64,000 bases of DNA from Mesobacillus persicus (lineage in GTDB: Bacteria > Bacillota > Bacilli > Bacillales > Cytobacillaceae): assembly GCF_900109925.1 (NCBI RefSeq), contig NZ_FOBW01000003.1, positions 248,001 through 312,000 on the forward strand, in the 5' to 3' direction. The stretch's first letter is position 1. Each line of letters begins with the position of its first letter. The translations under genes and the position numbers were made by a program. Of this stretch, positions 21,165 to 36,214 are shown in pieces. The notes beneath the pieces were generated by a model. That model saw only the letters and a program-made list of their open reading frames with translations, was not told the DNA's origin and did not search any database.

Positions 21165-22241
21165 ATGACTAAAAAATCCATATACGGTATGACATATGAA
21201 CAACTAACAGAATGGCTTTTAGGACATGGCCATAAAAAATTTCGAGCGTCACAAGTTTGGGATTGGCTTTATATTAAGCGGGTAACAGAGTTTTCTAGCA
21301 TGCTCAATGTTAATAAAGAGTGCATTCAATTACTAGAAGATCATTTTTATATCCAGCAATTAACTTTAAATCTGAAGCAAGAATCTTCAGACGGAACGAT
21401 TAAATTTTTGTTCAATTTGCCGGATGGCAATTTAATCGAAACCGTATTAATGAGACATAAATATGGTTTATCGGTATGTGTGACAACCCAGGTAGGGTGT
21501 AATATTGGTTGTAGTTTTTGTGCAAGCGGAATTTTAGCAAAAACTCGTGACTTAACCGGAGGAGAAATTGTTGAACAGATTATCAATGTTCAACATCACC
21601 TGGACGAAAAAGGTAAAGACGAACGAGTCAGTCACGTTGTGGTTATGGGAATTGGTGAGCCATTCGATAATTTTGAAAACTTGATTGATTTCTTACAAGT
21701 GATTAAGGATCAAAAAGGCCTTTCCATTGGCGCAAGACATATCACCGTCTCGACTAGCGGCCTTTCGAATAAGATTTATGAATTTGCTGACCTTAATTTA
21801 CAGGTAAACTTAGCTCTTTCTTTGCATGCACCAAACAACGAACTTCGTACGCAAATTATGAAAATTAACCGTGCCTTCCCGATTGAAAAATTAATGGACG
21901 CAGTTGATTATTATTTAGATAAGACAAATCGGAGAATTACGATTGAATATATATTGTTGAAGGGTGTAAATGATCATAAGGAAGAGGCTCTACAACTTGC
22001 TAAATTGTTTGAAAATAAGCGTCATCTTGCCTATGTAAATTTAATCCCTTATAACCCTGTTAATGAACATATTCAATACGAGAGAAGCGAATTAGATTCA
22101 ATCCTTGCTTTTTATGATACATTGAAGAAAAAGGGGATTAATTGTGGAATTCGCCACGAACAAGGTACAGACATTGATGCAGCATGTGGTCAATTGCGAA
22201 GTAAACAAATGAAAAAAGAAAAAGAAACGGCAAAAGGTTAA
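21165..22241 (+). CDS. rlmN: Dual-specificity RNA methyltransferase RlmN
   Basis: A radical SAM enzyme of 358 residues that methylates C2 of A2503 in 23S rRNA and A37 in some tRNAs. The N-terminal helical accessory domain (about 1-90) is followed by the radical-SAM barrel, with the cluster motif [11 protein letters not shown] (about 112-122), GIGEPFDNF, the VSTSGL segment, [13 protein letters not shown] and NLIPYNP. The C-terminal catalytic cysteine is in DIDAACGQL (about residue 344). Family length and motifs are complete. The start follows GAGGG. It is flanked on both sides by clusters of dispersed repeats and ends with a strong terminator. Confidence 0.94.
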
Positions 22242-22676: not shown

Positions 22677-22804
22677 TGGGATCAGTCCCCCGGTGGAGTA
22701 AAGCGTTACTTTAGTGAGGGTCTGACCCCTGAGAAGTAACGCTTTCTAAATTTTTTGTGGAACATTTTGTGAAACAAGATTATTCGGGTTGTGACAGGCA
22801 CTCC
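22677..22804. repeat. Composite repeat: family A, partial A, family B
   Basis: A full family A palindrome (ATCAGTCCCCCGGTGGAG ... GAGGGTCTGACCCC, 22677-22730), a fragment (GAGAAGTAACGCTTTCT), then a family B right end (TTTTTTGTGGAACA ... GTGACAGGCACTCC). It ends exactly where the hsdR fragment becomes recognisable. Confidence 0.72.
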
Positions 22805-23585
22805 AACAAAGAAGTTAAAAGATGTATATAAAATATGCACAGGTCTATTAACTAAAGAAATTAAAGAAGAAATCGCTTATTTTATTGCTGTGCGTTCCTT
22901 TATTATGAAATCATCAAAAACAGGAACTCCTGATTTAAAGGAAGTAAATGAGCGGATTTCTAAACTCTTTGAAAATGCGATTCTTGAAGATGGAGTTATG
23001 GTGTTAACGGAAGCTACAACAAACGAAAGCTTTGACCTACTAAACGAAGAGAATATATCAAAGCTTCGCGCCATTCCACAGAAGAATATTGCAACTACAG
23101 TTCTGATGAGAGTTATGAAAGAAAAACTGAAAGATGTTAAAAAGAAAAACATGACTGTAAGTAGAAGTTTTTCGGAGCGTTTTGAAAAAATAATAGAAAA
23201 GTATCATAATAGGAACGACCATTTAGACGTTTATGAAGTGTTTGAAGAGCTTCTTAAGTTTAAAGAAGAACTAGAAGAAGCCATTAACGAGGGAACACAA
23301 CTAGGTTTGTCCTATGAAGAAAAAGCGTTCTTTGATGTTCTAGGATCAGATCCAGATATAAAGTCATTACTTCAAGATGAAACCTTACTCAATATTGCAA
23401 AAGACTTAGCTAAGACAGTTAAAGAGCATAGATCTCACGATTGGGATAAGAAAGAAAGTGCTCAAGCTCGTATGAGGTTATATATTAAGAAGGTCCTTCG
23501 TAAGTGGGATTATCCACCTAACAAAGAACCAAAAGCTGTCGAAGATGTATTAGAACAGGCGAAGTTACAGGCTGCTAATATGTAG
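22791..23585 (+). pseudogene. 3' fragment of type I restriction gene hsdR
   Basis: The 264 codons from a GTG inside the repeat encode only the C-terminal helical domain (DUF3387 type) of a type I restriction R subunit. Visible features are FDLLNEENISKLRAIPQKNI, VSRSFSERFEKIIEKYHNR, EGTQLGLSYEEKAFFDVLG and a WDKKESAQARMRLYIKKVLR segment with YPPNK following. A complete HsdR is about 1000 residues and has nuclease and helicase domains, all missing here, as are hsdM and hsdS. Homology begins right at the right edge of a family B repeat (about 22805), so the break is at the repeat. The fragment itself has no stops or frameshifts, which suggests a recent deletion or continued translation. Confidence 0.88.
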
Positions 23586-23608: not shown

Positions 23609-24190
23609 GTGCACAATCTAAGAAGAATTACACCAATGTGCCCAAAGTGTAGAAGACACAATACTTATGATTATATCCCAGAAATGCCTAATCAACATGA
23701 GCCCCAATTACAAGCTGATAACTTCTTTCATGAGATTTATTCAATTGGAAATGCAAAGTATTATTGCATTGATTGTAACTATAAGTGGAAAAAGTATATG
23801 GGTAAGAAGCCTTATGAAAGAATTAGAGTAATTATTGCATATGTTGGTGGATATCCTGGCCCATATTGTCAGGTGAAAATTGATTTAGCTGAACAAAGAG
23901 TTGAACACAATACTGATTACCCTTTTTCAGACGGATTACCAGTCAACGATAGTAGCTATTTATTAGAAGAGGACATAGAATTATTTCTAACCGAACTTCA
24001 TAAATGCGATTTTGTTAATTGGGCTGAAGAATACAATACATTTGGGCCTGTAATGGATGGTACTCATTGGAGTGTACGTATAGAATTTGATACTCACTGT
24101 GAGATTAAAACAGGAGATAATCATTTTCCACCAAAATGGACGAAATTCTGTAAAGCGATCTCTAAGTTGAGTGGAAATGAGTTTTATTAG
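23609..24190 (+). CDS. Hypothetical protein with N-terminal zinc ribbon
   Basis: A 193-residue protein starting at a GTG with GGGGTA upstream, 23 bases after the hsdR fragment. Two Cys pairs, MCPKCRRH (about 10-15) and YYCIDCNYKW (about 51-57), form a likely zinc ribbon. The remainder is a compact domain with GGYPGPYCQVKIDL, LEEDIELFLTELHKCDFVNW, DGTHWSVRIEF and a tail GDNHFPPKWTKFCKAISKLS. I know similar tails only from uncharacterised proteins. Its position after hsdR suggests it was cargo in, or an accessory of, a lost restriction locus. Confidence 0.6.
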   Translation: MHNLRRITPMCPKCRRHNTYDYIPEMPNQHEPQLQADNFFHEIYSIGNAKYYCIDCNYKWKKYMGKKPYERIRVIIAYVGGYPGPYCQVKIDLAEQRVEHNTDYPFSDGLPVNDSSYLLEEDIELFLTELHKCDFVNWAEEYNTFGPVMDGTHWSVRIEFDTHCEIKTGDNHFPPKWTKFCKAISKLSGNEFY

Positions 24191-24893: not shown

Positions 24894-26573
24894 TTGAATA
24901 AGAATATTAAAGTTATTGCCTGTTATAGTGAAATCATGGGGAATAAAATGCCGAAAGAAGATATTATAAAATTAATTAAAAGAGTTCCTTTGTTGTCATC
25001 TTTTATTCTCTTGTCACAGATTTCTAGTGATGGTATTGATGAAACAAGAATAAAAGGAGCTTTTAAAGAGTTATATGAAAAATTTGCGGTAGGAATTTTA
25101 AATAATAAATCGCTCCCTTCTAATTTACGGGAGCAAGTGTACAAAAATGTAATAACTAAATTTAATCATGAAGTAGAAAATAATGTTGTTTTTTCTCAAC
25201 AGAGTATTTTGAATTTATGGAAATGGCTACTAGCTTATGGAGATGTTAATAATATAAATTTACTGCAAGAAAAAACAGCTAGCTTGTCTGCGATTACATA
25301 TCTTGCGCTTGCAACTAATGATTATCTAGACAATGAGAATAGACAAACAACAGAGGAATTACATTCTGAGGTATTTAGTAACGCTTTTTTTAATCATCAA
25401 GAGAATACTTATAATACACTTGCTAGAACCATCTTAATTTATACTGAAATCGCAATGAATAAAGCTCTTTACCATGAAAATGAGTTTTTAGATATAAATC
25501 ATGATTTCTTTAATGCGTTTGGATATTCAATTAAAGAACATATAGGGTTAATTTTTGGTTTAATAGCTTGCTTTTATAAACCTAGAGAGCTTGGCTCTAG
25601 ATGGTTGCAAAACCCTGAAGTTCTACTTGCCAATCTTAAGTTTAAAGATCAAGCAAAGGACATGTTATCTTCGTTAACAACTAACTTTAAAAGCATATCT
25701 ATATGGTCTAAACAAAAATTAGACTCAAAATGGGATTTTATGGAATTTAAGAAAACACCTCTAATAAAACTTGAAGATGATCAATTTATGCCATTTAGTC
25801 TAAAATTGCTTTATGAACATCTGTTCATGGGTTTGTATCACAAAATAAGGCATATATATCCCGAAGACGATAGTAGTTTCTTAACTTTTTACGGTAAGCC
25901 ATTCGAAAGATACGCACAAAACTTAGCTCAGAATTCTGTAAATGAATCCAAGTTACCTTATTCAGTAATTACGGAATTTAGATACAAAAAAACTAAAGAT
26001 TCTCCTGATATTATGATTAGATTGAATAACAAATTATTAGTTATTGAAGTTAAAAGCTATAGATTAACACTATCTTCTATTACCGAAGCAAAAGAAAGTT
26101 CCATAAATAGAGATATGGAAAAAATGGTCATATCCCCACTTAAACAAACACACGATAGGATTAAGGAACTTATAGAGATAGATCATGAAACTGTTAAGGG
26201 AGTAGAAGAATACTATTTGGTTGTTGTAAACCAAGGTCACTTCCCCACGATCCCATTATTTGAAAGTAGAATTACTCAGGAATTAGAGAGTTATTTTGAT
26301 ACACCTATTAACGGATATTACCACCTAGATATAGAAGAATTTGAAATGCTTTGTAGTCTGATGGAAAAAAGAAGACCTATATTTAAAGTTCTAGATAATA
26401 AAAATGGTGAAAAAAATAAGCTACTTCCCTTTAAAACATTTCTTTACAATAACAGTTATCATGTTATGAAAAACAAATCTCTTGTTGATAAGTTTGATCA
26501 AATAGTACAAGAACTTGGAACGATATGGTTTGAGCATTTTTCTGAAAATAGAAATAAAAATAACAGGGTGTAA
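24894..26573 (+). CDS. Large unknown protein with PD-(D/E)XK nuclease signature
   Basis: A 559-residue AT-rich gene starting at TTG with AAGGGGG 9 bases upstream. Residues 1-300 are helical, with no family I recognise. Residues about 330-400 carry the hallmark of a restriction-endonuclease-like nuclease: FYGKPFERYAQNLA (helix with Glu), then SPDIMIRLNNKLLVIEVKSY, in which PD...EVK fits the PD-(D/E)XK metal site. A conserved-looking HDRIKEL helix follows. The C-terminal 120 residues are mixed. It lies between an hsdR remnant and a Wadjet locus, and the low GC differs from the flanking genes, so horizontal acquisition is likely. A phage- or plasmid-defence nuclease is inferred, not shown. Confidence 0.6.
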   Translation: MNKNIKVIACYSEIMGNKMPKEDIIKLIKRVPLLSSFILLSQISSDGIDETRIKGAFKELYEKFAVGILNNKSLPSNLREQVYKNVITKFNHEVENNVVFSQQSILNLWKWLLAYGDVNNINLLQEKTASLSAITYLALATNDYLDNENRQTTEELHSEVFSNAFFNHQENTYNTLARTILIYTEIAMNKALYHENEFLDINHDFFNAFGYSIKEHIGLIFGLIACFYKPRELGSRWLQNPEVLLANLKFKDQAKDMLSSLTTNFKSISIWSKQKLDSKWDFMEFKKTPLIKLEDDQFMPFSLKLLYEHLFMGLYHKIRHIYPEDDSSFLTFYGKPFERYAQNLAQNSVNESKLPYSVITEFRYKKTKDSPDIMIRLNNKLLVIEVKSYRLTLSSITEAKESSINRDMEKMVISPLKQTHDRIKELIEIDHETVKGVEEYYLVVVNQGHFPTIPLFESRITQELESYFDTPINGYYHLDIEEFEMLCSLMEKRRPIFKVLDNKNGEKNKLLPFKTFLYNNSYHVMKNKSLVDKFDQIVQELGTIWFEHFSENRNKNNRV

Positions 26574-26724
26574 TTTAAAATTACTATCCTAGTTACTTTG
26601 ATAATAATGAAATTTATAACACAAAGCAACTTCCACTCTCACTTGGATAATTGGTATTGAAGGAGGAGTTGAAATATTGGATTGATGGCTTTTGGTTACG
26701 AAAAATTAGAATTACAACTCGTAG

Positions 26725-27021
26725 ATGCGGAGGGAGCAGACAATAAAGAGGAAGAAGATTTTCTCAGGAAAAATAGCAAGTAGCTTTTTTACTAAAGAAC
26801 ATAATGTAGCCATAGCTTTAATTGAAAATTTGAGACCTAATTATAAGTATGATTATATAATGGCCATAAGTCATATAAATAGTTTGCTTAATGTTATTAA
26901 TTTGGATTTACAAGAACCGAGAACTAAGGAGGCTATTGAATATATCAAACGAAATATTGATTCTGCTAAAACTAACATTTTTAAAACAAAAGAACTTCAA
27001 GATTGTATGAAATACTTGTAA
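26725..27021 (+). CDS. Small helical protein of unknown function, start uncertain
   Basis: A 98-residue helical protein (HNVAIALIENLRPNYKYDYI, HINSLLNVINLDL, TKEAIEYIKRN). The ATG at 26725 has no ribosome site; the best site, GGAGGG, lies inside the ORF at 26729 and no normal start follows it. An overlapping 32-codon frame from ATG 26685 (MAFGYEKLELQLVDAEG ...) also looks protein-like, so a frameshift may have split one gene. It is 150 bases after the nuclease-like gene and 48 bases before the DUF4238 start, in the same direction, so it is probably co-transcribed. Confidence 0.5.
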   Translation: MRREQTIKRKKIFSGKIASSFFTKEHNVAIALIENLRPNYKYDYIMAISHINSLLNVINLDLQEPRTKEAIEYIKRNIDSAKTNIFKTKELQDCMKYL

Positions 27022-27068
27022 AAATTAGAGATGATTTTATAAAAAGAATAATGGATAGGGGTTATTTT

Positions 27069-28067
27069 ATGACTACATACCAGTTTACTAAAAACCAACA
27101 TACTGTTCCAAGGACTTGGCTTCAACATTTTACAACGGGTAGCAGTAGTAAAATACATGTATTTGATACTCAAAAAAATGTTTACGATGGTTCTGAAAAT
27201 ATAAAGAAGGTAAGCTACATTGAAAATTTTTATGATTTTAACCAAGAGATAAACGAACATTTTATAAATAATGGAGTATTCCAGGAACCAGCAGATGAAC
27301 AGTTTGTTGAAACAAAACTTTTAGCTAGAAAAGTTGAAAATAATTTAGGGACAGTACTACCTCAAATCCTTCAAAAATTGAACCACCATAAAACAAATAT
27401 TTTAGAAAAAGAACAAAAGAGTGCTTTTTCAGTTCATATTGCTATTCAAATGTTGAGAACAAGTGTGATGAGAGAATTTTTAATCAAATGTTTAAAAAAG
27501 ATAAATGAGTTAGGAACAAAAGAACAAAGAGAAGAATATCAATTAGATGTAGAAAAAATGAAGGAATTACATCATTATGGAGTATTAACAAACTTGGAAC
27601 TGATTACGCATTATGCTCAGGACTATTTAAGTAAGTCTTGGGTTTTTCTAAAGCGCGGCAGTGGAAGTATGCCATTTTTTATTTCGGATAACCCGATTGT
27701 TTTCGATAGATTTGGGGAGGGTTACAATTATTGCGTTCCATTATCCTCTGATTATTTGCTATTTCTGGTAGATCCAAAGTATAAGGTAACAATTTTTAAT
27801 AAACCTGTTTTCCCACAAACTAAACCATATAAAGTTGAAAATTTACAAGACTATGAGAATTCAGTTGTAGAAGTTGATGATAAGATAATTTCAAAACTTA
27901 ACATAAGACAAGTAGAACAATGTGACCACCAAGTATTTGCAAGTGAGAATAGTTTTGCTTGGTTAGGTGGTATTACTATTAACAAAACTGGTATTTCTAA
28001 AATAAATCATCCAGATTTTAAAGAAGAGTTTTTTACGAATTTTATTAAAAATTTATTAGAAAAATAA
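27069..28067 (+). CDS. DUF4238 domain protein
   Basis: A 332-residue protein with the two marks of DUF4238: the N-terminal TKNQHTVPRTWLQHFT (His-x-Val-Pro-Arg ... Phe) and, two-thirds along, PFFISDNPIVFDRFG. Between them are helices with LNHHKTNILEKEQKSAFSVH. The biochemical activity of this family is not established, and members are scattered in accessory and defence-like islands. The start at 27069 has ATAGGGG 7 bases upstream; an earlier in-frame ATG at 27003 overlaps the preceding gene and lacks a site. A terminator follows at 28224. It forms a likely operon with the two genes before it. Confidence 0.78.
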   Translation: MTTYQFTKNQHTVPRTWLQHFTTGSSSKIHVFDTQKNVYDGSENIKKVSYIENFYDFNQEINEHFINNGVFQEPADEQFVETKLLARKVENNLGTVLPQILQKLNHHKTNILEKEQKSAFSVHIAIQMLRTSVMREFLIKCLKKINELGTKEQREEYQLDVEKMKELHHYGVLTNLELITHYAQDYLSKSWVFLKRGSGSMPFFISDNPIVFDRFGEGYNYCVPLSSDYLLFLVDPKYKVTIFNKPVFPQTKPYKVENLQDYENSVVEVDDKIISKLNIRQVEQCDHQVFASENSFAWLGGITINKTGISKINHPDFKEEFFTNFIKNLLEK

Positions 28068-28223: not shown

Positions 28224-28260
28224 AACCGTACAGTAAGTGTTAAAACTGTACGGTTTTTAT
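28224..28260 (+). terminator. Terminator after the DUF4238 operon
   Basis: AACCGTACAG and CTGTACGGTT form a perfect 10-bp stem with a 12-base loop, then TTTATT. Confidence 0.85.
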
Positions 28261-28443: not shown

Positions 28444-29523
28444 GTGAGTAAAATAGACATCATTGAAACTAGAGTAAGAGGCTTCATCGCCGACATCCAA
28501 CACCCAAAACAAAAGAAGAAGATTAATATAAATGATCTGGAACTGCAGCTACGCAGGCTTTTGGATGATTATTTTGATATGGACGGCTATTCGTTGTTTT
28601 ACCAGGCGATTCAGACCTTACAAGAGGAAGGTCAGCTGACCCCGCTTAAAAACAACCAATATAATGGTAGAACTCCAGCTTTGTCTTTATTTTACTGGGT
28701 TAATATCAAAGTTCAGGATACCAAATGGGACCGTCTTGAGATGATGAAATTGAGTGATCGGTTTGATTTTACCTATTATGAAAATCATCCGGAGTGGCAG
28801 ACGGAAGAGGAATTGAATCGAATTAAGAATTTATATACGTTTCTTCAATCCAGTCAGATACGGGAGATTGTCTCGTTAGAGGAACGAAGCCTTGAGTTGT
28901 TTGGGCATGAAAAGTTTTTACTAGACAGCGATCAATTCCCTGAGGGAAAAGGTTTTTTAACCCGAATTGGTGTATCCGAAGAGCAGCTAAAAGTGGTGAA
29001 CTACGGGGAGCCGTTTGTGTTTTGGATGAAGCAGGGGAAAGAGATTAAGGATATTCAGCGTGTGTTGATTGTTGAGAATCTATCATTCTTTCATACTGCG
29101 ATTCATCTACTAGAAAACAACCAACTTGATTATGAACCGGAATTGATCATATACGGGGAAGGGACGAAGATTGAGCGGAGCTTTTCGTTTTTCTTTCGGA
29201 TGTTTCCACCGAAAAACTACCTTTTCTATTATGCAGGCGATTTGGATGCCTCGGGTTATGGAATCCTTATTCGATTGATGGGAAAGTATCCGGAATGTTG
29301 TATTGAACCAGCGCTAAAAATTTATCGTAAAATGCTTGAGTGCCTAGACCAAAAGAATGACCAGAAAACCGGTCAAACGCAAAACCTCAAATACCGTGAT
29401 GCTTTCTTCCACTATTTTACGGAAGAGGAACAAGTTCTTTTACAACAACTATGGGATGAAAATAAGCGAATCCCGCAAGAAGTGTTAACGATCGAAACAT
29501 GGAGGAGGTGGACACATGAATGA
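28444..29523 (+). CDS. jetD: Wadjet anti-plasmid system protein JetD
   Basis: The nuclease subunit of Wadjet, 359 residues, cutting circular DNA handled by the JetABC SMC complex. The N-terminal half is the DNA-binding arm region. The C-terminal half is the topoisomerase-primase (TOPRIM) domain with the catalytic Glu in VLIVENLSFF (about 207-216) and Asp-x-Asp in YYAGDLDASGYGI (about 262-274). The start is GTG at 28444 with a weak site. It overlaps jetA by 8 bases, so the four genes form one operon. Here jetD comes first, whereas it is last in the classical type I order. Confidence 0.9.
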   Translation: MSKIDIIETRVRGFIADIQHPKQKKKININDLELQLRRLLDDYFDMDGYSLFYQAIQTLQEEGQLTPLKNNQYNGRTPALSLFYWVNIKVQDTKWDRLEMMKLSDRFDFTYYENHPEWQTEEELNRIKNLYTFLQSSQIREIVSLEERSLELFGHEKFLLDSDQFPEGKGFLTRIGVSEEQLKVVNYGEPFVFWMKQGKEIKDIQRVLIVENLSFFHTAIHLLENNQLDYEPELIIYGEGTKIERSFSFFFRMFPPKNYLFYYAGDLDASGYGILIRLMGKYPECCIEPALKIYRKMLECLDQKNDQKTGQTQNLKYRDAFFHYFTEEEQVLLQQLWDENKRIPQEVLTIETWRRWTHE

Positions 29524-31024
29524 ATCTTGGGAAGGATTCGCGCAGCGGATGCAGCGATTAAATCCCCTATTTGAGCTTGGAAGGGGAATGGAGGTAGGCG
29601 AGTTGAAGCCCTATCTCCAAACGGTTCTCATGCAAGTGCTGCTGACGATTTTTTATAAAGAGTTGAATGATGATGACGGCAGACGTAAGTCTGATATCCG
29701 CTATATGGTCGAAGATGCGATCAAGCAAATGAAGCTATTAGCGGATGATAAGCAAGTTGACCGGATTACCAGTGGGCTTTTGTATCAGGGGAAAGAAGAA
29801 TATAGTAAGCCGTTTGAAACTCTTTATTACGATGAACTCAGGCAATCTTGGGAAACGCAAACGTTTCGCTATGTCACGATGGATGAATCGTATACAAATT
29901 TAGAACTTGGTGGCTCCATTATTTATAAACTCACCGATGTCGCTCAGGAAATGATTTTTATGAGCAGGGAAATGGCGGAGGAATTCTCGATTACGATTGA
30001 ACAGCTTTATAGCATGCAGCTGATTAAAAATGGAAACTTCCGCAAAGCGACGCGAAACCTCGATCACCTCATTTCACGTGTTAACCGCTTATTGGCAAAA
30101 GAATTCACGTTTCAAAAGGAAATGGTTAATAATCCGAAAATCCTTATCATGGAAGAAGAATGGCAGCGAGCCGACAATCGCGAGGAAATTGAAAAGCAAT
30201 TTGACGAAGAGAAAACTCATTTTCGGACGATTACAAGCATGATTGATAAAACCATCCACACTAATGAAGGCGAGGATTATATTCAGAAAGAATTGATGCT
30301 TCTTCAAGAAAAGATTGGCCATACAAGACAATTGCATGACCGTCTTGCCAAGCTCGTCATTCAAAACATTTCCTATGAGATGAAATTAAAAGCGGAAAAT
30401 CCGTCGTTGTTTTGGGAAACAAGCCTTGTTTCGTTTAAAGAGCATTTTTATGAAAACTGGTTCATGAAAGAGGGCGTAAAAAGCTTCGACACTATTGAGA
30501 GTGTGTTGGGGCCGTTATTTTCACCGAAAAACGAATTTATTTTACCTCTTGATTGGATCTGGGGAGAACAGGAATACGATGAAACCCAGGAAACCGATGT
30601 GGTCGTTGAGGAAGAGGCAGAAGAAAGTACAGTTCGTCAGCGCGTGACCGACTGGAATTCGGTCATCAAAGCCTGGAGTTATGTGTTTCAATTTTTACAA
30701 ACGTACGGAGAGTTTTCGTTAGCTGATTTAGCGACCTTGCCATTAGAAGTGCAGGACCTATGGATTGAAGAATCGGAAACAATTGATTTATGGATGATGT
30801 TTGATAAAAAGCCACTGAAGGTGCAAGTGCTGCATCGACAGGAAGAAACGATCAGCGATGAGCGGGAGATTCTGCTTTATAAACTGATGCAGGAATATCC
30901 ACAATTTCAAGTGTTTGAAGGCTCGAAGATTTTTACAAAATTTGACCATCGTGCCGAGCCTTTCCTCTGGCAGCGTATGAAAATTACACCATTTAAAATT
31001 TGTGTAGAGGAGGAGAAAGCATGA
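29516..31024 (+). CDS. jetA: Wadjet protein JetA (MukF/kleisin-like)
   Basis: The 502-residue kleisin-like subunit that bridges the two SMC heads. It starts with GGAGGTGG before ATG 29516 and overlaps jetD. The N-terminal region (about 1-130; RLNPLFELGRGMEVGELKPY) is a winged-helix-like dimerisation part, the middle (about 150-300) is long and helical, and the C-terminus (about 380-500) is a second winged-helix-like domain (SLADLATLPLEVQDLWI). The size and composition fit the type II JetA (DUF5716-like) better than type I. Assignment rests partly on its place between jetD and jetB. Confidence 0.85.
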   Translation: MNESWEGFAQRMQRLNPLFELGRGMEVGELKPYLQTVLMQVLLTIFYKELNDDDGRRKSDIRYMVEDAIKQMKLLADDKQVDRITSGLLYQGKEEYSKPFETLYYDELRQSWETQTFRYVTMDESYTNLELGGSIIYKLTDVAQEMIFMSREMAEEFSITIEQLYSMQLIKNGNFRKATRNLDHLISRVNRLLAKEFTFQKEMVNNPKILIMEEEWQRADNREEIEKQFDEEKTHFRTITSMIDKTIHTNEGEDYIQKELMLLQEKIGHTRQLHDRLAKLVIQNISYEMKLKAENPSLFWETSLVSFKEHFYENWFMKEGVKSFDTIESVLGPLFSPKNEFILPLDWIWGEQEYDETQETDVVVEEEAEESTVRQRVTDWNSVIKAWSYVFQFLQTYGEFSLADLATLPLEVQDLWIEESETIDLWMMFDKKPLKVQVLHRQEETISDEREILLYKLMQEYPQFQVFEGSKIFTKFDHRAEPFLWQRMKITPFKICVEEEKA

Positions 31025-31773
31025 GTGCAGAAGCGATTAAAAAAGCGTCGGCCGTCTACTTTACGCTTTTAAAAGAGAAAGTCATTGATGAAAATAGTGA
31101 GCATTTCCAGACGTATTTTGACCCGGAAGTCCGACAGACTGTTCTGTTGTTAGCTGACGAATCGGGTACATATATCATCGAATCGGCAAAACGAATTCAA
31201 TTGGTCGTCCAGCCAACTGGCTCGGTGTTTGCGACGAATTTTACCCATATGAAAGACAAGCATAAGCAAATTGAAACGAAAAAACACTTTCATCTAATTA
31301 GTGTTGTGATTATGGCGTTTTTAGCGAGTATTGACCGAAACCAGGCCGCGAAAATTCGTTCGCAGCGTGAAGGAATCAGCTTTTATGGATTGGAACGGCA
31401 AGTAAACGATCTGATTATGAACTGGGACAATATGCTAAAAACAAATCCTTCGTTTGGAGAAACGGAAAAAATCGATATGAAGGAAGTCGTGACAACGTGG
31501 AAGTACATGGAAGTAGATACCGATGATTTTGGCGGCATGAAAAAGGCCAATCGCCGCACGAGAATCGGCTTAATTACGACAGCGATGCGCTTGTTAGAAA
31601 CCGAGGGACTGATCGTTGTCCTCGACCGCGACGAGATTCCAAAAGGGATTCCCAAACAAGAGCTATTTGAGCGGATTGAATACTTGTACCACGATTATGA
31701 TCGGTATGAAATGTTTAAGAAATTAGTGACAACAGAGGAGGAAGCTGAGCATGCCGAAAATCAATCGAATTAG
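31021..31773 (+). CDS. jetB: Wadjet protein JetB (MukE/KITE-like)
   Basis: A 250-residue subunit equivalent to MukE, a tandem winged-helix (KITE) protein that binds JetA and DNA. The start at 31021 overlaps the jetA stop by ATGA and has GAGGAGGAG upstream; an earlier ATG is ignored. Features are the N-terminal KKASAVYFTLLKEKVIDEN, FGGMKKANRRTRIGLITTAM and LLETEGLIVVLDRDEIP in the second winged helix. It fits the DUF6063-like JetB of type II systems. It overlaps jetC by 23 bases. Confidence 0.85.
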   Translation: MSAEAIKKASAVYFTLLKEKVIDENSEHFQTYFDPEVRQTVLLLADESGTYIIESAKRIQLVVQPTGSVFATNFTHMKDKHKQIETKKHFHLISVVIMAFLASIDRNQAAKIRSQREGISFYGLERQVNDLIMNWDNMLKTNPSFGETEKIDMKEVVTTWKYMEVDTDDFGGMKKANRRTRIGLITTAMRLLETEGLIVVLDRDEIPKGIPKQELFERIEYLYHDYDRYEMFKKLVTTEEEAEHAENQSN

Positions 31774-34700
31774 AATTGTTGGCCTCAAGTATGATGGCAT
31801 GCAAAAGCAATACAAAGATACTGTTTTTAACTTCCATAATGAGAAGACGTCAACCAATGGGTTGATCTCGATGATGAATGGTGGCGGAAAAGGGGTATTC
31901 TTGCAAACCATCTTCCAGATCCTCAAACCGGGTACGTCATGGGGAAAGCAAAACAATCGTTATTATCAGCAATTCTTTTTTAATCATAAAGAGCAGTTTA
32001 TCCCTTATACCTTTCATGTCGCCATTCAATGGGAATTGGACGGTGCCGACCACAGGCATCTTATCACCGGCGGAATGTTCTCAGCCGAGCAGCGGATTTC
32101 GATGAGTGATGATACCGAAAATGAAAAGAAAACCTTAGAACAAGAAGCGAAAATTCTTCCGAATATTACTTTTTATACGAGAGAGTTTGAGCGCCAAGAA
32201 GAGGCAGCGCTAGAGCATATCCCTCTGTTTGAAAATGAGGAAACGGCCGATACCGAGGGCTTGAAGGACTATTTAAAGTGGAATGGCTATGATGTTTACC
32301 GCGATACGAAGAAGCATTATCGCATCCTTGATACGTATGGAATTGACCGCAAAGACTGGGATATTTTAAAGGATATCAATAAGGATGAAGGTGGCGTCGG
32401 CAAATACTTTGAGGGCGCCGAGGATGATCATTCGTTGTTCCAAAAGCGAATTATCCCGACGGTCAGTCAGGTGTTGCATCGAACTGAGCATCAGAAAAAC
32501 GACCTTGTGGAGATTTTTAAAAGTCAGGCAAGTATTGCGAAGGACCTGCCTGTGCTGTTAAAACGAGAGCAAGCGCATAAAGAGTTTTTAGAAGACATTG
32601 TCCCGTTTGAAGACCACTTAGTAACTGGAATTCAGCATAAGGAAGTGGTTGATGAAAGCATTAAGGTTGGTCGACAATTGCTAGGTGCGTTGGAGCATTT
32701 GTTGCAAGCGGAAAGAGAAACGCTTGTTACGTTAGAAAAAGACCTTGAAAAATTAATGGTGAAGCAAGACGAATTGCGCTTTCAAAAAGACAATTTAGAG
32801 TTTGCTAAAGCACATCGCGAGGTTCGCGATTGGGAGAAGAAGTTAGCGGAAGAACAGAAGAAGCATGAAGCGTTACAAGAGGTTGTTCAAGCGAAACAAG
32901 ACCGAAAAGATGAGCTTGCTTTTCAAGTGCTATTGAAAGAGTGGAGTGAAAACGAGCAAAGCATTCGTGCGCTTTCTCAGCAGATTGCGAAGTTGGAACA
33001 GAATAGTGGCTTAGAGCAAGTGAATCAACGCATGGATGAAATTAAAGCAGAAGCGGCCAAGCAATGGGAAGAATCATCTTTAGCGATGAAAGAAGCGATC
33101 AAGCAATATTTTGCTTATCAAAAGTTTTTAAAGAAGAAAGCAACCGAGCTGTCGAAACAGGATAAGCAAAAGACAACAGAGGTTGCCAAGCTGAAAACGG
33201 AAATCGATTTTCTCTATACGCAAATCCATACCTTTGAGTCGAAGGAAACTACCCTTATCAAGGAATTTGGGGACCGGTTAACTTATGACTTAAAAGGCTT
33301 TGTGGAAAGCTTGGCGAAACAGATTGAAGACAAAGAAAAGCTGTTAACTGATTTGCAAGCAAAAGAGAAAGCTTCGAATGAAAAGCAAAATGATTTGGCC
33401 ACGCAGCATGGAACGATGGTTCAATCGATTGAGTTTTCGGAAGAGAAATGTGAAGAATTAAAAGCAGATAATGAGCAGCAAAAGCAAAAAGAAGCGAAAC
33501 TCGTTGATAAACTTCATGGGTTGCTGGCTGAAGTTACTGAGCCGTTAACCAATGCTTTGTTGTCAAAGTATAGTCTACAAATCGAGGAATTGCTCGCCGA
33601 GAATCGCCAACAGGCGGAGGAACTGAAGAAAGAACTTTGGGAAAACCAGCTTGATCATTCATTAAACGATGAGCCATTTTGGATTGCCAATAAAGACGTC
33701 AAAGAGTTAAAAGAATGGATCGATGAGAAGACAGGCATCGATGTGTTTTATGGAACGCAATTTCTGCAATCCTTAAGTCCAGAAGAAATGGCGAAATCTC
33801 TGATGACATATCCACTTCTACCATTCGGGTTAGTCGTAAGCAGGCAGCAATGGCAGAAGATCAATCAGCAGGTTCTTTCAGGACGGATGTTTAAAAGTCC
33901 GGTTCCGATTTTCATGCGCGAGGAAATGAACAATGAAACGGATGCAGCCTCGTTTGTGATGGTCAATGGAACGGAGCATGAGCTTTTAACTGATAAAAAT
34001 CAGTTTACCAACTGGAAAATTCAAATTGCGAAACAACTAGACGAAAAGAAAGAAACGCTGGAAGAAATCGAGAAAACAGAAACGTCATTAAGACGGATTT
34101 TAAAAGAAATGGATCGGTTTTTATCTAATGACCTATCCAGTGAAATTGAAAGAGCGTTGACTCAAGAACAGAATGTGCTCGCTGCAAAGAAAACGAAATT
34201 ACAGGAAATCAATACCCAACAAGAGAAAGAAAAAGAATTGCAGCTTCAGCTAAAAGAACAGCGGAAGAAAGCGATGCAAAAGGTCGAAAAGCTTTCCAAA
34301 GATGTGGAAACTTTAACTGCGTTTGAAGCGGAGAAAGAGCTGCACCAAGAAAACAAGCGCGTGAAGCTAGAGAAAGAGAAACAACTAGAAGCCTTGGTTA
34401 AGCAGCAGCAAGAAGTTAGTAGTGAGTATGAAAGTGTCGTGAATCAACAAAACGACTGGAATCAAACCTATGTCGAATGGAAGCTAACCACCGAACAAAG
34501 TATTAAAAGAATCTCGTTCTTTATTGAAGCGGCTGCGTTTCCTACCGAGGAAAAAGCGGAAGCTTCTGAAGAGGTGCCGCGTTTATCATCCAAGATTTTA
34601 GAAGAAATCAATGGAAGCATTGGTGAGCTCAAACAGCTTCATAAGTCAAAGGAAGAACAAGCAAGTGAATTAATCAAGATTCAAGCGACAAAGGATTCTG

Positions 34701-36214
34701 AACAAAAGCAGCAAAAGAAACTAGAGAAAAAACTCCAGGCTCTAAATGAAGAATGGAAAGAAGCAGTCGAGCCAGATGAACCGATTAGCATCCTCGAAAA
34801 TATGCTACAAACGGCAAGTAAGGATGTAAAGGCAGCGGAAAAAGAAGAACGTGAGCAAGGAACGGCTGTCACGGTAGCTGAAACGTCTTTTAAGCATGCG
34901 ACCGAGCAGCGTGAAAAGGCAGGAAAGAAGGTTGCCAAGCACGAGAAGCAGCCGGAAGAATGGGAAGAACATGATTTAGAGGTCAAGGAAGTTGAAATTA
35001 AAGACCAAACGAAGCTCACGAAAAAAGACATCAAGGACACAGAGAAACAGCAAAAAGAAGCTGAAAATAATATCACCAATTATGAAGGCGATTTGTTTAC
35101 TTTATCTGTCGTGCTAAAAGAGGAAGCAGCTAGCTTTACCGATGAGGATGTCGAAAAGATTAAGAGTCAAGGAAAGAAATGCATCTTAGCCTGGTGTGAT
35201 GACCATCAAGGGATTCAAGAAGAAGGCAAAGAAAAGCATGCGAAAATCGAACAATCATTAAGGAATCTTAAGCTTGCGATTGAAGGCAAGGATTGGGAGA
35301 TTCGTTTTAAAAATGAAGTGTTAACGACACTTGATCATATGGATACACGGCATTATCACCATATCCAAAATGTCGTGAAAAACATGAAGCGTTTTTCACA
35401 GAGTGGTTTGGAACAATTGGAGCGCGATAAGGAAAGAGCAGAAAAGGCGCAAAACTTCTGGGCTAGTCGTGCCAGCATGAAAGTGATGGGAATTTCCGAA
35501 GCGATTCGCTCAATGATTGCTAAAATGAAGTTGAAAAATGAACGAGGTTCGTTCCCGCTCGTTCAGCTGAAAGAAGATATTTTACCGAAAAAAGCAGAAG
35601 AGATTGAGCCACTTCTGAAACAGCATTTCGTTTCAGCGATTAATAAAATAACGAAACAATTTGATCGCATTGATGACCATAATCGCGAATTAGATACTGA
35701 GATCAAACAACTGATTAGCGATGAGCAAATTTTATTTGTATCGTTACGAAATCAATATCCTGAACTCCTTGTTTATAACATGCGAACTGATAATGCGTTT
35801 ATGTACGGGAAACCGCAAAGAGAGCATTATTCCACTTGGCAGACGATTAACCAAGGATCGAAGACGAAATCTGATGGTAGTGGTGGACAAAAGCTATCGG
35901 CCCGGATGGTGATGATGATGATGTTATTATCTGTTAAGGGTGAAACCGATCAAAGCTGGGTTCCGTTAGTCGTCGATAATCCATTTGGACAAGCGGCATC
36001 TGCACACGTTCTTGATCCGATTTTCGCTGTGGCGGAGAAGCTGAAGTTCCAATTTATTGTCGTGACGCCGCCTGAACTGGTGAAGACGGAAATCAGTCAA
36101 CGATTTGATGCGTATTATAAATTGGACTTTATACGTGAAAAAGGGAAAGAAATTGTATCGGATACGATTGTTCCGGCATTTCGGATTTATCAGGGCGAAG
36201 AAGTGACACAATAA
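31751..36214 (+). CDS. jetC: Wadjet protein JetC (MukB-like SMC ATPase)
   Basis: The 1487-residue SMC ATPase that extrudes DNA loops to recognise circular plasmids. The N-terminal Walker A is ISMMNGGGKGVFLQTIF (about 39-55). Two long coiled coils (about 280-600 and 770-1180, very rich in Glu, Lys and Gln) flank a hinge-like region (about 655-745; GIDVFYGTQFLQSLS, PLLPFGLVVSRQQW). The C-terminal head has the ABC signature SDGSGGQKLSARMVMMMMLL (about 1372) and Walker B WVPLVVDNPFGQA (about 1402). The usual Lys-Ser/Thr of Walker A reads Lys-Gly. RBS AGAGGAGG. The operon ends at a terminator at 36256. Confidence 0.93.
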   Translation: MPKINRIRIVGLKYDGMQKQYKDTVFNFHNEKTSTNGLISMMNGGGKGVFLQTIFQILKPGTSWGKQNNRYYQQFFFNHKEQFIPYTFHVAIQWELDGADHRHLITGGMFSAEQRISMSDDTENEKKTLEQEAKILPNITFYTREFERQEEAALEHIPLFENEETADTEGLKDYLKWNGYDVYRDTKKHYRILDTYGIDRKDWDILKDINKDEGGVGKYFEGAEDDHSLFQKRIIPTVSQVLHRTEHQKNDLVEIFKSQASIAKDLPVLLKREQAHKEFLEDIVPFEDHLVTGIQHKEVVDESIKVGRQLLGALEHLLQAERETLVTLEKDLEKLMVKQDELRFQKDNLEFAKAHREVRDWEKKLAEEQKKHEALQEVVQAKQDRKDELAFQVLLKEWSENEQSIRALSQQIAKLEQNSGLEQVNQRMDEIKAEAAKQWEESSLAMKEAIKQYFAYQKFLKKKATELSKQDKQKTTEVAKLKTEIDFLYTQIHTFESKETTLIKEFGDRLTYDLKGFVESLAKQIEDKEKLLTDLQAKEKASNEKQNDLATQHGTMVQSIEFSEEKCEELKADNEQQKQKEAKLVDKLHGLLAEVTEPLTNALLSKYSLQIEELLAENRQQAEELKKELWENQLDHSLNDEPFWIANKDVKELKEWIDEKTGIDVFYGTQFLQSLSPEEMAKSLMTYPLLPFGLVVSRQQWQKINQQVLSGRMFKSPVPIFMREEMNNETDAASFVMVNGTEHELLTDKNQFTNWKIQIAKQLDEKKETLEEIEKTETSLRRILKEMDRFLSNDLSSEIERALTQEQNVLAAKKTKLQEINTQQEKEKELQLQLKEQRKKAMQKVEKLSKDVETLTAFEAEKELHQENKRVKLEKEKQLEALVKQQQEVSSEYESVVNQQNDWNQTYVEWKLTTEQSIKRISFFIEAAAFPTEEKAEASEEVPRLSSKILEEINGSIGELKQLHKSKEEQASELIKIQATKDSEQKQQKKLEKKLQALNEEWKEAVEPDEPISILENMLQTASKDVKAAEKEEREQGTAVTVAETSFKHATEQREKAGKKVAKHEKQPEEWEEHDLEVKEVEIKDQTKLTKKDIKDTEKQQKEAENNITNYEGDLFTLSVVLKEEAASFTDEDVEKIKSQGKKCILAWCDDHQGIQEEGKEKHAKIEQSLRNLKLAIEGKDWEIRFKNEVLTTLDHMDTRHYHHIQNVVKNMKRFSQSGLEQLERDKERAEKAQNFWASRASMKVMGISEAIRSMIAKMKLKNERGSFPLVQLKEDILPKKAEEIEPLLKQHFVSAINKITKQFDRIDDHNRELDTEIKQLISDEQILFVSLRNQYPELLVYNMRTDNAFMYGKPQREHYSTWQTINQGSKTKSDGSGGQKLSARMVMMMMLLSVKGETDQSWVPLVVDNPFGQAASAHVLDPIFAVAEKLKFQFIVVTPPELVKTEISQRFDAYYKLDFIREKGKEIVSDTIVPAFRIYQGEEVTQ

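Follow-up and report, generated by a model that had tools for sequence, protein, structure and literature searches.

The window analysed here is a 64,000-nucleotide stretch of Mesobacillus persicus DNA (RefSeq assembly GCF_900109925.1, contig NZ_FOBW01000003.1, positions 248,001 to 312,000 of the forward strand), in which positions 24,894 to 28,067 carry three consecutive open reading frames (ORFs), referred to as ORF1, ORF2 and ORF3. We favour, with a probability of roughly 0.77, the interpretation that ORF1 and ORF3 are two independent single-gene anti-phage modules adjoining a recombination scar in a small, patchwork-like defence island. From 5' to 3', the island consists of a remnant of HsdR, the gene for a GapS1-like nuclease, what is left of the 3' end of a mobile gene, a gene of the DUF4238 type and Wadjet. 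A sequence-only reading of the same DNA had proposed the three ORFs as a single undescribed defence operon matching no named system. Neither of the two intact genes is a new kind, as both fall under named single-gene kinds (GapS1-like and DUF4238).

ORF1 encodes a GapS1-like putative nuclease

ORF1 (24894..26573, + strand) encodes a 559-residue protein. It begins with a TTG codon preceded by a Shine-Dalgarno (SD)-like sequence (aaggggg), and its N-terminus lines up with the N-termini of relatives. The restriction-like motif pointed out in the sequence-only reading is present, with SPD at residues 370-372 and IEVK at residues 384-387, in a region that matches the Pfam NERD domain (PF08378; residues 341-444, E = 6.8e-6) above the cut-off. 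Residues E338, D372, E385, K387 and Q418 are invariant in all of the 18 full-length members aligned, which range from Bacillota to a Klebsiella plasmid; the 18 rows were taken from 23 members in hand, and L016, L039, L056, L057 and a Planococcus member were left out as broken or incomplete. An AlphaFold2 model obtained from ten sequences (predicted local distance difference test, pLDDT, 86.6; predicted template modelling score, 0.85) is helical up to approximately residue 290 and then features the element order expected of a PD-(D/E)XK core (domain at approximately 327-480). The NERD match, the invariant residues and this model support the assignment of ORF1 to the PD-(D/E)XK nucleases, the fold that the motif had suggested.

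When the model was compared with the PDB by Foldseek, the top ten matches, all weak, were chains of N.BspD6I, FokI and R.BspD6I, and the lower ranks included Holliday resolvases and the Shedu nuclease domain, among many unrelated proteins. Comparison with viral models gave no match at E <= 0.001, restriction-like nucleases and resolvases being among the weak ones. Global template modelling (TM) scores of approximately 0.2 were taken as indicative of fold class only, and a FokI-like mechanism was for this reason not drawn from the Foldseek matches.

ORF1 also matches the NCBIfam model antiphage_GapS1 (NF047931). Residues 147-501 align with positions 81-436 of the 455-position profile (E = 1.8e-11, 43.6 bits), and the alignment takes in the catalytic motifs and most of the profile. 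In a whole-genome control, six proteins match NERD, five of them more strongly than ORF1, and the single GapS1 match is ORF1; the GapS1 match thus goes beyond the NERD domain. Four of the six members of one alignment of relatives (A1) match the model, as do eight of the ten members of another (A2; best E = 8.4e-21), in which L014 and L038 give no match. We regard ORF1 and its relatives as a coherent GapS1-like family. The nuclease might be GapS1 proper, with trigger and target as in the tested GAPS1 systems, since the eight A2 relatives match over most of the GapS1 profile. This is unlikely, as the proteins that match reach scores of 29.5-74.3 bits, where the curated cut-off is 320, and their alignments begin only after 80-126 profile positions. 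With PADLOC, ORF1 matched PDC-M49B (E = 0.0011) and Cas4 (E = 0.0037), and one A2 member matched Csx1; these matches were set aside as too weak and isolated.

The helical N-terminal region of ORF1 may recognise a phage component or a form of DNA specific to infection, upon which the NERD-type PD-(D/E)XK domain at the C-terminus would cut DNA. Within this domain, D372, E385 and K387 would bind metal and water, and E338 and Q418 would complete a site similar to that of RecB and Holliday resolvases; these roles are assigned after those usual in the PD-(D/E)XK superfamily. We infer that ORF1 functions in defence, cutting nucleic acid in response to a trigger and targeting either phage DNA, in a restriction-like fashion, or also host DNA, in an abortive one.

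ORF2 is probably the remnant of a plasmid-borne gene

ORF2 (26725..27021, + strand; 98 residues) had been read as a gene for a small protein. Sequence comparison suggests instead that it is what is left of an unrelated gene of about 476 codons, a 3' stub and thus a scar rather than an intact gene, and no function is expected of it. No convincing ribosome-binding site can be read in front of it. In the survey of the order, ORF2 matched 7 of the 397 genomes at E <= 0.01, its own genome counted. Of the matches in the six other genomes, only that in G241 is convincing (E = 3.1e-11, ORF2 residues 46-98); it falls at the end of a 481-codon open frame, listed as an ORF of 476 residues. The other five (E = 0.004-0.009) were judged to be chance. 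Over residues 47-98, ORF2 shares 50% identity with the C-terminus of this 476-residue protein, and BLASTP aligns residues 48-98 with its residues 426-476 at 51% identity.

A profile was built from seven full-length relatives (454-483 residues) found in G241 and in plasmids of E. coli, Rhizobium, Pantoea, Lactococcus, Acinetobacter and Streptomyces. Its match to ORF2 covers positions 393-468 of 472 (E = 2.1e-5); of the 2,555 fragments of the window that were compared, the second best reached E = 5. Approximately 390 codons of the gene are therefore missing, and its other parts were not found in the window. The possibility that ORF2 is a conserved component was rejected; as a query, it gave no match in plasmids or phages. 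The parent family occurs in 76 plasmid records, 47 of which are predicted to be conjugative, and in none of the phage records. Seven of the plasmid records were inspected, and in these the family is represented by one gene whose neighbours vary. A member in a genome of the window's order shares 47% identity with those of E. coli plasmids. The parent family is possibly a plasmid accessory or defence gene. Its members (for instance L068 1498-2928 and L087 3974-5404; about 454-483 residues) match no Pfam or NCBIfam model.

ORF3 encodes a DUF4238 protein

ORF3 (27069..28067, + strand) encodes a 332-residue protein whose QHTVPR and FISDNP sequences had led the sequence-only reading to name it DUF4238, an assignment borne out by the match to PF14022 (E = 1.7e-28; 100.3 bits against a gathering cut-off of 27). 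The QHxVP and SDxP motifs are seen in the alignment with five DUF4238 relatives (A3), to which ORF3 is 22-27% identical. The ATG at 27069, preceded by an SD-like gatagggg, is more likely to be the start than the TTG at 27003, which would yield a protein of 354 residues.

As described in PMC9122126, a single DUF4238 protein from the P2 hotspot confers strong resistance to T7, and three later papers name DUF4238 as a defence system. On the basis of family membership, we propose that ORF3 is a single-gene defence whose product would act on its own. The AlphaFold2 model of ORF3 is poor (pLDDT 61.8) and gave no Foldseek match at E <= 0.001; hence, no mechanism was drawn from structure.

The three genes do not travel together

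If the three ORFs formed one undescribed operon, the DUF4238 protein might sense, the nuclease cut and the small protein regulate. The ORFs share a strand and a similar low G+C content, no terminator is listed between them and one hairpin follows ORF3, as an operon would have it. Such an operon, which the stub nature of ORF2 and the activity of another DUF4238 protein on its own (PMC9122126) argue against, was evaluated in 20 distinct homologous loci besides the window, using profiles of ORF1 and ORF3 and the single sequence of ORF2. These loci remained after the removal of weak partial matches (G382, G413 and G428) and duplicates (L052, equal to L037, and L055, equal to L036). The phages SPbetaL6 and SPbetaL7, which score identically to SPbetaL4 and were not fetched, are outside this count, as are the Klebsiella and Planococcus plasmid members, the neighbours of which were judged from annotation. 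No ORF resembling ORF2 or ORF3 (profile E <= 0.01) lies in the flanks fetched for any of the 20 loci. Weak single-sequence matches to ORF3 in L035 (E = 0.34) and L003 (E = 0.92), and to ORF2 in L017 (E = 0.99), were judged to be chance.

The ORF3 profile hit only its own five source DUF4238 proteins and thus had no independent positive control; therefore, PF14022 was also run on whole genomes or records (14 + 6 of them, L053 not included). DUF4238 proteins are present in 4 of the 19 nuclease-bearing genomes or records other than that of the window (G356, G585, G725 and G721), and none was found adjacent to the nuclease. The distance is 613 kb in G356, 34 and 128 kb in G585 and approximately 3 Mb in G725, if its contig corresponds to the chromosome of the record; in G721, the DUF4238 protein lies outside the 17.6 kb fetched. 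Seen from the other side, DUF4238 occurs in 14 of the 397 genomes of the order. Seventeen DUF4238 loci were examined, 15 of them distinct (L075 and L077 repeat L018 and L017), and none of the 15 has a nuclease or ORF2 homologue in the fetched flank, which measures about 1.5 kb or less in 13 cases.

These data make a joint three-gene system highly improbable. Two of the outcomes that the sequence-only reading had itself taken to speak against such a system were found, as the pair is not adjacent in the other loci examined and its parts belong to named kinds. Its proposal of a role in defence fares better, and is likely in view of the neighbours of homologues. The analysis prevents a spurious three-gene system from being catalogued, and illustrates that unrelated defence genes on either side of a gene stub can mimic an operon.

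Relatives of ORF1 and their genomic context

Relatives of ORF1 are present in 6 of the 397 genomes of the order sample and in 8 of the 348 genomes of the class sample, the window's own genome being counted in both. Searches of named genomes revealed nine loci, the closest relative being a protein of Bacillus sp. OV166 (53% identity). Relatives were also identified in three phage records (SPbetaL4, SPbetaL6 and SPbetaL7), in two viral contigs and in plasmids, one found from ORF1 and three from the relative L036. With L036 as the query, the Klebsiella pneumoniae plasmid member is 24% identical over 96%. Scans of viral contigs with single proteins found no relative, and neither did a scan of genome contigs with ORF1 alone. 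In the phage and plasmid records seen, the relatives are labelled "hypothetical protein", and these labels may be older than the GapS1 model.

The neighbours of homologues include type III restriction-modification genes (L013), weakly Zac-like genes (L014), TniQ (L015), BREX PglZ and PglX (L039) and Thoeris ThsA (L056). A STAND-Mrr protein (L016) and a TPR-PIN protein (L049) were also found, and according to its annotation the Klebsiella member adjoins a TrlF ATPase and Abi genes. By analogy with such company, ORF1 is likely to have a defence role.

Some loci are of interest in their own right. In L015 (9060-18433), the GapS1-like gene lies beside TniQ and Mu-type transposase genes, apparently as cargo of a Tn7-like element. 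The nuclease homologue of SPbetaL4, SPbetaL6 and SPbetaL7 (37% identity; L002 5968-7593) is located among small genes, followed by an ORF that by eye is HNH-like, and is a candidate for superinfection exclusion; a search of the open-licence PubMed Central (PMC) literature on SPbetaL4 found nothing. In L039 (9090-16146), the homologue next to BREX pglZ and pglX is broken into pieces.

A wider proposal, which we consider tentative and rather less than even in its chances, is that the nuclease and its relatives constitute a distinct stand-alone anti-phage family, a sister of GapS1 unnamed in the libraries searched. Phages (SPbeta-like and Paenibacillus-type), plasmids and Tn7-like elements may have carried it into hosts ranging from Bacillota to Enterobacteria. 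Its helical N-terminal region would be a sensor, its trigger would differ from that of GapS1, and phages may use it against rivals. The analysis flags a mobile GapS1-like nuclease family of Bacillota and phages that lies far under the curated GapS1 cut-off and has clear catalytic residues.

Evidence weighing against two independent modules

Several observations weigh against the interpretation of ORF1 and ORF3 as two independent anti-phage modules. At 43.6 bits, ORF1 is far under the NF047931 cut-off of 320 and is thus outside the GapS1 family by the rule of NCBI itself. PADLOC yielded no convincing model for ORF1 or ORF3, and sequence searches of solved structures gave no confident ORF1 match. 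Among the Foldseek matches to the PDB, one is at E <= 0.001, with a TM score of about 0.2, and many of the lower ranks are not nucleases. The open-licence PMC literature searched contained nothing, experiments included, on this branch of ORF1. The scanned neighbours of homologues were picked by eye and show company rather than a measured enrichment, and the TPR-PIN neighbour in OV166 has no PADLOC match. The flanks fetched for the 20 loci span 3.2 to 9.1 kb per side, save for 285 bases 3' of L056. Finally, both families occur in two genomes of the order (the window's own and G356), against approximately 0.2 expected from 6 and 14 of 397; in G356, they are the two families that lie 613 kb apart.

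Organization of the island

As the sequence-only reading had described, three same-strand, low-G+C ORFs are found between an HsdR remnant and a Wadjet locus, which the ORF list, base composition, Pfam and PADLOC all confirm. The G+C content is 0.388 in the window as a whole and 0.413 in the Wadjet genes; at 0.293, 0.283 and 0.294, ORF1, ORF2 and ORF3 are lower, which suggests that the three arrived later. In the upstream flank, and separate from the nuclease gene, is a type I restriction remnant (22791..23585, + strand) corresponding to the C-terminal quarter of an HsdR protein (PF11867, E = 1.6e-65, positions 70-328 of 329; PADLOC REase_I, positions 767-1020 of 1029). The spacer at the junction of the nuclease gene and the stub (26574..26724, + strand) contains stops in all three forward frames. 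Downstream, the Wadjet genes jetD, jetA, jetB and jetC (28444..36214, + strand) match the PADLOC type 3 models.

An intrinsic-terminator-like hairpin with a T run (28224..28258, + strand) is located 3' of ORF3. Its folding energy of -14.9 kcal/mol (z = -3.9) was equalled by none of 200 shuffles, and it was missed by the consensus terminator scan as its loop exceeds the length that the scanner permits. It bears out the terminator noted after ORF3 in the sequence-only reading. ORF1 and ORF3 could be co-transcribed, as no terminator was listed by the scan in the interval between them; nothing was found that points to their joint action. A scan for sigma-70 sites gave 10, fewer than the mean of 25.4 in shuffles, and therefore no promoter is claimed.

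The genes might alternatively be inactive passengers of a decaying island, given the HsdR remnant, the ORF2 stub, the stop-filled spacer and the broken copies elsewhere (L016, L039 and L057). We consider this very unlikely, as ORF1 and ORF3 are full length and their conserved residues are intact.

Two further ORFs are found upstream. An ORF of 193 residues with CxxC pairs reminiscent of a zinc ribbon (23609-24190), between the HsdR remnant and the nuclease gene, matches no family at a score that passes the cut-off. The other, at 21165-22241, encodes an RlmN-type rRNA methyltransferase (passing the TIGR00048 cut-off) and is the second such gene of the genome. A search for an empty site by means of this flanking RlmN gene retrieved partial matches of 64-68%, and one short piece of 80%, in the six other genomes of the genus; its match to the other RlmN copy of the genome is similar (66%), and the gene therefore gave no basis for comparing empty sites.

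Comparison with known systems

ORF1 resembles NERD nucleases (PF08378) in the domain at residues 341-444, and differs from them in that it is the weakest of the six NERD matches of the genome and has a long helical N-terminal region joined to the domain. The type IIS nucleases FokI and N.BspD6I are its top Foldseek matches in the PDB, and TM scores of approximately 0.2 and identities of 8-13% indicate a likeness in fold class only. ORF3 agrees with the DUF4238 single-gene system of PMC9122126 in exceeding the Pfam cut-off and in its QHxVP and SDxP motifs.

The closest known counterpart of ORF1 is GapS1, to which it aligns over profile positions 81-436 of 455, and its relatives lie near other defence genes. 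GAPS1 was reportedly described by Mahata et al. in 2024. According to a meeting report (PMC12908700), GAPS1 of K. pneumoniae is protective against many phages, which supports the role of the GapS1 family and is not known to concern the ORF1 branch. ORF1 and GapS1 differ in that the aligned part begins at residue 147 in ORF1 and at position 81 in the profile, approximately 66 residues more, and the matching relatives leave the first 80-126 profile positions unaligned. Moreover, in the material searched, the ORF1 family is mostly from Bacillota, with one Klebsiella plasmid in addition.

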